From Bacteroidota bacterium (GTDB taxonomy: Bacteria > Bacteroidota > Bacteroidia > 2-12-FULL-35-15): a stretch of 64,000 nt of DNA. Shown here piece by piece: positions 23,326 to 58,513 of the stretch. Under the pieces are notes generated by a model. The model had not been told where the DNA came from. It saw nothing but the letters and a program-made list of their open reading frames with translations, and did not search any database. The stretch covers positions 1 through 64,000 of the forward strand of contig CANIQT010000001.1 of NCBI GenBank assembly GCA_947469885.1, in the 5' to 3' direction. Positions within the stretch are counted from its first letter, which is position 1; each line of letters begins with the position of its first letter. The position numbers and the translations under genes were made by a program.

Positions 23326-23446
23326 AAACGGAGCGTGAGGGATTGTAACGGAAATCCTTTTTTGTTGCGTTGGAATAAGTGGCGGGGCGACAAAAAAGAT
23401 TGTAGTGGAAAGCCCGACCCCCGATTCTTCATCGAGGGGCACGCCC
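23326..23446 (+). repeat. Inverted ~120-bp repeat, left copy (A)
   Basis: It begins AAACGGAGCGTGAGGGATTG and ends near GGGGCACGCCC. It matches the reverse complement of 24707-24823 along nearly its whole length with a few substitutions and small indels. Internally it holds two GATTGTAxYGGAAA blocks separated by TTTTTTGT ... ACAAAAAA arms, plus a CCCCCGATTC / ATCGxGGGG hairpin. A third, more diverged copy lies at 58361-58440. No open frame in it looks like a gene. Confidence 0.88.
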
Positions 23447-23557
23447 AACTACAAAATATTATAATTTTAGGCGTTTCTGTTTCATCAACTAGTCAAATCA
23501 AATCAAAATTTAACGGAACAAAAGAAGCAATACCTGTTGTAAATCCTCCAAAACCCA

Positions 23558-23912
23558 TTTCTTTTCATGCAAAACCTGTTTCATTTTCAACAAAACTCAT
23601 TGTTTTTCATCCAAAGTTCATGACATATCTTTCATCATTCCCATCTTTTCATCGAAAACCTGAACCTTTTGAACAAAAGTTGATTAAGTTTATTTAAAAG
23701 TTAATCAACTTTCTTGTAAACTTCCCACCTTTTGGCTAAAAGTTCGGAATTTTTGCGAAAAAGCCTGGAACTTTGAACAAAACATTGGGAACTTTGGGTG
23801 AAAAGCAAGGAAGAATTGTAGAAAAGTCGGGAAGATTTGAACAAAAGTTCTGGATTTTGATAAAAACTTAATCAACTATTCCAAAAAGTTAATCAAGTTA
23901 TTAAAATAACTT
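23558..23912. repeat. 21-bp-periodic palindromic array 1
   Basis: About 17 diverged units in tandem, each with a T3-4 tract, a central NGNNC-like core and an A3-4 tract (for example CCTTTTGAACAAAAGTT at about 664-680 of the 23,000s). Unit centres fall at about 23568, 589, 610, 631, 652, 673, 694, 715, 736, 756, 777, 798, 819, 840, 861, 882 and 902, a spacing of 21 bp throughout. Reading frames across it hit repeated stop codons or unsupported starts. It ends against the -7 box of the following gene. Confidence 0.85.
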
Positions 23913-23915
23913 ATA

Positions 23916-23923
23916 TATCTTTG
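23916..23923 (+). promoter_or_regulatory. -7 box before the 224-residue unknown gene
   Basis: TATCTTTG matches the Bacteroidota -7 element, 37 bases before the ATG. No TTG occurs at the -33 distance, where the last array units lie instead. Confidence 0.5.
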
Positions 23924-23960: not shown

Positions 23961-24635
23961 ATGAAACAAACTATAAATTGTCTTCGAGAATATCCCGGGC
24001 TTCCGGAAGCAGAAAAACCAACTTACCTTGTAAAACATGGCGACTTTATAACAACCAACGCGTCCGTTTTTCCAGACATCCCTTATGATGGAGCAACAAT
24101 TACAAGTAATGGCATGACGCTATTTACTTTATCTGCCCGAAAAGACAGCAGCGATGAAGGAAGAAATGCATACAACACACAAGCAAAACTGTGCGAAAAC
24201 ATGATGGAAGAAAATTATGATTATGTAGATTTGATAGCCAAGGGCAATAAGGATATTGTAGCAAAAGCAGGTGTGAAGGGCACAAGCGCAAACACAACTC
24301 GAACAAAACCTCCATCCACTCCTTCCAATCTTCGATATATTTTGCAAGGCTCGGTTGCCGGAGAAATGAAGATGGCTTACAAAGCAGACAAGCTGGCATG
24401 GGGGGCTATCATCGTTTCGTTTTACGATGAAAATGTAAACGTGACGTATAACGACAGTCATCAATTGAAAATAAAAGTGGGCGAAGTAGAAGTATTGGTA
24501 GATGTTTCGACCACAGTAAGAACGATGATTAAAAAATTAAAGCGAGGAGAAAAATTAAATTCGGTGGTTGCGTTGTTTAATCCAAATGGTTTGTCGCCCG
24601 TTGAAAGCCCCGCATCTATTATTGTTCCAAGATAG
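23961..24635 (+). CDS. Protein of unknown function inside the inverted-repeat cassette
   Basis: 224 residues without signal peptide or membrane segment. The N-terminal ~110 residues (FITTNASVFPDIPYDGATIT, NTQAKLCENMMEENYDYVDL, GNKDIVAKAGVKGT) are mixed and probably helical in the middle. After a threonine/proline linker (TRTKPPSTPSNLRY) the rest is beta-rich and reminiscent of a fibronectin III-like fold (GSVAGEMKMAYKADK, ending NPNGLSPVESPASIIVPR). I do not recognise a named family. It is the only gene between the inverted repeats and lies directly after array 1. Confidence 0.72.
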   Translation: MKQTINCLREYPGLPEAEKPTYLVKHGDFITTNASVFPDIPYDGATITSNGMTLFTLSARKDSSDEGRNAYNTQAKLCENMMEENYDYVDLIAKGNKDIVAKAGVKGTSANTTRTKPPSTPSNLRYILQGSVAGEMKMAYKADKLAWGAIIVSFYDENVNVTYNDSHQLKIKVGEVEVLVDVSTTVRTMIKKLKRGEKLNSVVALFNPNGLSPVESPASIIVPR

Positions 24636-24706: not shown

Positions 24707-24823
24707 GGGCGTGCCCCCCGATGAAGAATCGGGGGTCGGGCTTTCCGCTACAATCTTTTTTGTCGCCCCGCCAATGCAAAACAACAAAAAAGGATTTTCG
24801 CTACAATCCCTCACGCTCCGTTT
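24707..24823 (-). repeat. Inverted ~120-bp repeat, right copy (B)
   Basis: The reverse complement reads AAACGGAGCGTGAGGGATTG at its start and GGGGCACGCCC at its end, as copy A does. The two copies point away from each other's inner ends and enclose 23447-24706. The hairpin CCCCCGAT/ATCGGGGG is perfect in this copy. The longest open frame over this copy is only the upstream extension of the next gene and has its own promoter excluded from it. Confidence 0.88.
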
Positions 24824-49703: not shown

Positions 49704-49735
49704 GTTTTGAGTTATGAGTTTTGAGTTATGAGTTA
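49703..49735. repeat. GAGTTATGA intergenic words
   Basis: Diverged tandem copies of GAGTTATGA / GAGTTTTGA immediately before the start of the nucleoid-associated protein gene (minus strand). The same word forms the block before pyrG at 51918-51950. Confidence 0.65.
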
Positions 49736-49854: not shown

Positions 49855-50065
49855 CCTATTTTTTCCAAAAAGAAAGCCTTCTTTTCCATAAATATTGCTT
49901 TATAAATCAAAAAGAAAGGGAACTACGACTTAAAGTTCCCTAAGTTTGTCTGAAATTTCCCAAATTTTGTCCAAAATTTCCCAAATTTTGCCGAAACTTC
50001 CCGAATTTTACGTTTAATGTTCCTTTCTTTTCCTCTTCATTTGCTTTCTTTTCCGAAAAGAAAGG
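49855..50065. repeat. 21-bp-periodic palindromic array 2
   Basis: About ten diverged units with centres near 49865, 886, 907, 929, 950, 971, 991, 50012, 033 and 054, again spaced 21 bp. Typical cores are AAATTTTGTCCAAAATTT and CTTTCTTTTCCGAAAAGAAA, both close to palindromic. The sequence is unrelated to arrays 1 and 3 in base order. Weaker units may continue to about 50100. The flanking 49736-49854 and 50101-50148 hold nothing recognisable. Confidence 0.82.
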
Positions 50066-50296: not shown

Positions 50297-51950
<1,654 letters not shown>

Positions 51951-57856: not shown

Positions 57857-58085
57857 TAAAAATAGTACTATTTGAAATCCAAATAGTACTATTTGAACTT
57901 TAAATAGTACTATTTAAAGTCTGAATAGTACTATTTAAACTTTGAATAGTGGTATTGAAACCTCCCGATAGCGGTATTTTTATTTTCAAAAGCACTATTC
58001 AAAGTTTGTTAAGTGGTATCGAAACTTTGAAAAGTACTGTTTAAACTTTGCGGAGTGGTATGTAAAGTTTGCATGTCGGAAATTA
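57857..58085. repeat. 21-bp-periodic palindromic array 3
   Basis: About eleven units. The core AGTAC/AGTGG occurs at 57864, 885, 906, 927, 948, 970, 991, 58012, 033 and 054, a period of 21 bp with a single 22-bp step. The first four units carry the perfect 14-bp palindrome AAATAGTACTATTT (G in place of the first A in the fourth); later ones drift (for example ATAGCGGTAT, AAGTGGTATC). The rest of each unit is an AAACTTT-like linker. Translation of either strand runs into repeated stops or lacks any protein features. Confidence 0.88.
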
Positions 58086-58360
58086 AATTCCGAAAACCGA
58101 ACCTTTTCTTCTTTTGGAAGAATACTATTATATATAAGAAGGAATTTAGTTAACTGATAAAAGTAATATATAAACGGAAATGCGGTTTTCAGAAGATTTG
58201 TAATAAATAAGTAGTTTTTTACTCGCATTTTATTTTACTTTTTTGCGCGTTAAATAATCGGTTTGGTTCGACATAGTAAATAAATCTAATTTTTAAAAGC
58301 AAATTTATTTTTTGGGAAATTACTTAAACGGTTGCCCGAAGAAATGCGCTGTCAAACTAA

Positions 58361-58440
58361 ACCCGATTGTAGTGGAAATCCTTTTTTGTGTGTTTGCTTT
58401 TGAGGGGGAGGGAAAAAGATTGGAATGTAAAGCGGGAAAG
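58361..58440 (+). repeat. Third, diverged copy (C) of the ~120-bp repeat
   Basis: CGATTGTAGTGGAAATCC followed by TTTTTTGTG, then a G-rich middle, AAAAAGATTG and AAAGCGGGAAAG corresponds piece by piece to copy A at 23326-23446, but the middle and the CCCCCGATTC end are changed or missing. It lies about 275 bp from array 3. No gene lies in the surrounding 58086-58513, apart from an open frame that copies the periodic sequence. Confidence 0.65.
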
Positions 58441-58513
58441 CAGTGATGTGCAATGCTGTAAGCGTTCTTTCCAACTAATTTTTATTTTTTTGAATAATTT
58501 GTGTGCAAAAAGT

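Follow-up and report, generated by a model that had tools for sequence, protein, structure and literature searches.

Helically phased direct repeats beside a gene are found in plasmid iteron and centromere arrays (Rep iterons, ParR-parC) and in phased operator arrays, all of which are plausibly bound cooperatively by a protein. The nearest named layout to the locus reported here is that of the type III toxin-antitoxin (TA) systems (ToxIN, CptIN, TenpIN), which likewise have a locus-specific tandem array directly upstream of a small gene and carry a hairpin terminator between the repeats and the gene (PMC8860590). Also similar are the BrickBuilt MITE of Porphyromonas gingivalis, an intergenic, multi-copy set of tandem direct repeats in a Bacteroidota genome that is composed of one 23-nt repeat family with a leader, a tail and terminal inverted repeats (PMC4596501), and the clustered extragenic palindromic units of REP/BIME elements (PMC3733652).

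The locus lies in a window of 64,000 nucleotides (the whole stretch of DNA analysed) from the genome of a Bacteroidota bacterium. The features of the window are as follows.

23555..23912 (no strand): array of about 17 units at a 21-bp pitch, two dyads per unit, consensus like GAACTTTTGnnCAAAAGTTCG, defined by autocorrelation, dyad folding and per-phase profile
23916..23923 (+): TAnnTTTG sequence (TATCTTTG) between array and gene, a candidate -7 promoter element of the Bacteroidota type
23961..24635 (+): superfamily gene encoding a 224-aa protein with N-terminal helices and a C-terminal FN3-like sandwich, in no curated family
49903..50007 (no strand): second array at a 21-bp pitch, short (AAATTTCCCAAATTTTGTCCG); no superfamily gene recognised
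57857..58067 (no strand): third array at a 21-bp pitch, of about 10 units (AATAGTACTATTTAAACTTTG); no superfamily gene recognised
23328-23423 (+), 24730-24821 (-) and 58355-58443 (+): copies of the Flavo-1 RNA (RF01705)

The first-pass annotation of this DNA had described a 21-bp array of palindromic units, and the period survived a shuffle test. Self-identity of the window array at lag 21 was 0.54 versus 0.29 expected (z = 9.7), a value reached by none of 1000 dinucleotide shuffles of the 355 bp tested. Autocorrelation was also raised at lags 42, 63, 84 and 105, and TRF detects parts of the array. The best folding period of the dyad scores was again 21 bp (0.45; the top of 200 shuffles was 0.41). 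The phasing over two helical turns proposed in the annotation is upheld, as is the 21-bp pitch of the centres, but its single symmetric centre per unit is not: each unit of the window array has two dyads, 10.5 bp apart at phases 9.5 and 20.0, and thus symmetric centres recur at each helical turn. Irregularities consist of one or two poorly matching units near 23621-23645 and a few shifts of +/-1. The array is non-coding, as had been claimed, with at least six stop codons in every frame, and the possibility that it lies inside a protein gene in relatives was tested and does not apply. A coding origin of the arrays was rejected, given that the window frames are all stopped and that open frames elsewhere fall on either strand. 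In the array at C2:132143 one frame reads heptad-like (NKTTELI), which is not general. A CRISPR array was rejected because the units are contiguous and lack spacers.

The genome was scanned for arrays as stretches, first over 464 kb and then over 1.24 Mb of the 4.07 Mb, with array boundaries set by simple profile extension and good to about one unit. About 50 arrays of exact 21-bp period were found in the 1.24 Mb, usually with 5-18 units and with a unit sequence peculiar to each locus. A search of the whole genome and of relatives had been proposed in the first-pass annotation, and dozens of arrays came of it; what that reading missed is that the window array is one of these dozens and is placed upstream of a superfamily gene. 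In 273 intergenic gaps that were 180 bp or longer, the best strong tandem period was lag 21 in 41 and another lag (10-40) in 6; 21 bp is essentially the sole intergenic tandem period in the scanned DNA of this genome. The arrays are alike in pitch and symmetry and not in sequence, the units being unrelated between most loci. Symmetry exceeded that of column-permuted versions at p < 0.05 in 20 of 47 arrays.

The third window array (57857-58067) and a distant array, L011:1152-1380 (C2:21153-21383), have nearly the same unit (AATAGTACTATTTAAACTTT), and a Flavo-1 copy lies near each, as would result from the duplication of a larger segment. The array at L017:12591-12842 (C3:12586-12837) has an inner 10-bp part of its unit in both orientations with the pitch kept, and resembles the outcome of inverting segments that lie between dyads. 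Alternating units giving a higher-order period of 42 or 84 bp were seen at L157:2012-2361, at L231:4401-4749 and in the upstream region of L260, indicating growth by block duplication. A separate repeat class consists of many short intergenic 7-bp repeats (GTTATGA, TTGGTCA), which occur at 49704-49735 and 51919-51950 of the window and at many other loci, for example C2:278000-282000. Two oppositely oriented Flavo-1 copies flank the window array and its gene. Flavo-1 RNA has 19 copies genome-wide, and it was rejected as an array partner because most copies are not near arrays.

The pairing of array and gene is well supported. A 21-bp-period array lies upstream of 50 of the 50 superfamily homologues that have enough flanking DNA (a count that admits off-by-one multiples of 21 bp and leaves out one partial gene match), and an array was found downstream of 1 of 49. 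Under a strict rule, applied to loci that take in two further subfamilies (the third, of 221 aa, and the fourth), the upstream array was present at 46 of 51 superfamily loci, the controls being 79 of 915 ordinary genes in the same genome and 1 of 520 windows taken from genomes without arrays. Of the five loci that this rule left out, four had best lags of 83, 83, 85 and a weak 84, and the fifth was the partial gene match (lag 14). Homologues with upstream arrays range from this genus to other classes of Bacteroidota. Those of the 224-aa gene, inside and outside the genus, are immediately preceded by an array wherever the upstream DNA is intact. The second subfamily (205 aa) is preceded by one at all nine places; these, like the loci of the two further subfamilies, took in contigs and genera new to the analysis and gave a blind confirmation. 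The 221-aa subfamily is present in eight genomes of the genus and missing from the sampled array-less genomes. A similar search with FN3 domains embedded in large proteins gave no arrays. In the reverse test, genes found only by following an array matched the family profiles (C1:82493 at 1.7e-9, C3:228017 at 6.5e-11 and C1:102056 at 1.4e-5). For around half of the arrays detected de novo no superfamily gene was recognised, and such arrays may stand alone, be partners of more diverged members, or be relics. The data throughout are sequences only, mostly from metagenome-assembled genomes.

Given 61 array-gene loci, we determined the common anatomy. The arrays have a median of 11 units (usually 10-13), and the step from unit to unit is exactly 21 bp at 570 of 591 junctions. 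Symmetric sites are spaced regularly along the helix of duplex DNA, as in phased operator and iteron arrays, and dyad symmetry reached p < 0.05 in 33 of the 61 arrays. The median distance from array end to open frame is 155 bp (usually 100-250 bp), and the window array ends about 50 bp before its 224-aa gene. The candidate -7 element in that gap, TAnnTTTG, is also present at the corresponding place in a related genome, G026; this promoter was seen at only a few loci and is not general.

The linked proteins are about 205-250 aa long, and for the subfamilies tested no Pfam, PHROG or NCBIfam family reached its cut-off. For the 224-aa protein AlphaFold predicts, at low confidence (pLDDT 64), a helical N-terminal part plus an FN3-like sandwich, and for the 221-aa subfamily a matching architecture at high confidence (pLDDT 92). 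Foldseek matches of the C-terminal part are FN3 domains. Of the two domains predicted, none is known as a DNA-binding fold. At C2:132143 a CarboxypepD_reg beta domain replaces the FN3-like one. The unity of the superfamily across subfamilies is taken from shared size, layout and weak profile matches, with no single strong alignment. Small XRE-type HTH genes adjoin arrays or superfamily genes at C3:80508, C3:136414, C3:228384, C12:93552 and C5:74676, and their products are possible array-binding regulators.

The more alike two linked proteins are, the more alike are their arrays (Mantel p = 0.002), and hence array and gene are co-inherited. At relative protein scores below about 0.3-0.4 the array sequences are unrelated, which rules out one sequence-specific reader common to all loci. 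In genome G026 an orthologous array is flanked by the same genes, is 67% identical and keeps the 21-bp pitch. The interspecies footprint in the window array is formed by the half-sites: the dyad flanks (TTTT...AAAAGT) are conserved and the dyad centre is spared. MAFFT alignment of the window and G026 arrays gave 1 indel per 118 substitutions, and blastn gave 9 per 94 for all arrays in the compared C1 stretch, the comparison values being 136 per 794 for intergenic and 205 per 10500 for coding DNA. Since the scarcity of indels in the array varies with the aligner, a constraint on pitch drawn from this pair is suggestive only. Compensatory change at dyads was not above control between the window and G026, and compensatory covariation was rejected, only one of four ortholog comparisons being suggestive of it. 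Upstream of ftsK other relatives have a different 21-bp array or none. G026 and G004 have similar array densities, and five other genomes of the genus (40 kb each) gave no multi-unit 21-bp array.

Pairing, upstream-only placement, fixed pitch, dyads and the lack of RNA-type signals (below) all come from direct computation. The best explanation, which we hold tentatively and infer from sequence data, is that the array is a cis-acting, helically phased operator array through which an oligomeric, dyad-reading protein controls the linked gene. The array would be the cis-acting half of a two-part locus, the gene that follows it, for a helical bundle plus FN3-like domain, being the other. An oligomeric DNA-binding protein would read half-sites that all face the same side of the duplex, with a dyad at each helical turn, and assemble cooperatively along the array. 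The bound assembly would then set how the linked gene is transcribed from a promoter in the intervening DNA. Putative cooperative binding by a symmetric protein, a role suggested for a dimeric one in the first-pass annotation, remains the best reading of the array. As indels would break the helical phasing, the pitch would be kept while the letters drift with the gene. Candidate binders are the linked protein, the obvious choice given the strict pairing, an XRE-type regulator, or another cellular protein. A broader proposal, possible but more doubtful, is a phylum-wide, highly multi-copy system in which each member of the fast-diverging superfamily assembles on, or is controlled via, its own co-inherited phased array. 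Pitch and dyad symmetry would be selected and sequence left free at each locus, possibly for conflict or self-recognition.

An unlikely alternative to the operator array is a selfish or mutational minisatellite, in which block duplication creates and homogenises the arrays and the link to the gene is one of inheritance only. Since duplication copies whole units, 21 bp would be kept, and such growth fits the higher-order periods of 42, 63 and 84 bp, the near-identical units of some arrays, the arrays that lack superfamily genes and the doubly oriented inner segments at C3:12586. However, drift alone predicts neither a single period (41 of 47 periodic gaps) nor dyads in unrelated sequences, nor the upstream placement at 50/50 homologues across the phylum.

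It is likewise improbable that the locus is type III TA-like, with the array transcribed into repeat RNAs that bind and restrain the linked protein. The tandem array directly 5' of one small gene (50/50 homologues) has that layout, each locus has its own repeat that drifts with the protein, array RNA folds more stably than shuffles and the sense strand of the arrays is slightly purine-rich. Yet a terminator-like hairpin between array and gene was found at 0 of 61 loci, the units of the window array are too dissimilar to yield equivalent RNAs, and just upstream of the array identity between the window and G026 is 49%, with no promoter conservation there. Moreover, the architecture of the linked protein is not an endoribonuclease fold: there is no Pfam match of the ToxN, CptN or TenpN type, and the prediction is a helical bundle plus FN3. 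The dyads also lack a G-U signature, mismatches at dyad pairs being depleted alike (G-T 0.72 and A-C 0.78 of control), and folding showed no sense/antisense bias (32/61, p = 0.62). Given this equal depletion and the lack of a strand preference in folding, the symmetry seems to belong to duplex DNA, which we favour over RNA hairpins. The transcribed row of hairpins offered in the first-pass annotation is disfavoured on the same grounds, G-T showing no excess over A-C.

Very doubtful is a purely structural role, in which a 21-bp repeat, being coherently curved, would serve as bent DNA for upstream activation or for organising the nucleoid, with no sequence-specific binding. A pitch of two helical turns, free sequence and a place upstream of genes agree with this, but predicted curvature was not significantly above that of column-permuted arrays (mean z 0.34, t = 1.76, from wedge parameters), and the dyads and gene-family specificity would be left unexplained. 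Equally doubtful is a recombination or mobility site that moves or shuffles linked genes as cassettes: the copies are dispersed, their distribution inside the genus is patchy and the array upstream of ftsK differs or is absent in relatives, but the arrays of different loci share no sequence, an unsystematic inspection noticed no terminal repeats or integrase, and two proteins tried had no match in plasmids, phages or viral contigs, by which a phage or plasmid origin was rejected.

In agreement with the first-pass annotation, which gave no named family for this design, searches of Rfam, Pfam, PHROGs, NCBIfam and open-access papers gave neither a family nor a prior description of such arrays. 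Ordinary motif searches miss a cis element that is set by pitch and symmetry and not by its sequence. This one precedes every tested superfamily member across the phylum, with dozens of loci in some genomes, and hence gives a direct handle on the function of an uncharacterised superfamily. It is also a natural test case for DNA sites that keep helical phasing during sequence turnover.

Despite the likeness in layout, the arrays differ from type III TA loci in having 21-bp dyad units, no terminator, no RNA signature, a helical plus FN3-like protein and dozens of loci per genome, usually of 10-13 units. As two defining type III TA features are lacking, the array locus was not filed as such. Unlike iterons and ParR-parC, the arrays are chromosomal, occupy tens of loci with unrelated units and have no linked replication or partition gene. 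Unlike BrickBuilt, they have 21-bp units of many unrelated sequences and a linked gene superfamily. Flavo-1 RNA, although found on both sides of the window array and gene, has a different structure. REPs share sequence genome-wide (PMC3733652), whereas the arrays described here share only pitch and symmetry. Their placement just before the genes of one superfamily in many Bacteroidota, with letters that vary by locus and a two-turn spacing that hardly ever varies, points to an undescribed DNA element tied to that superfamily.
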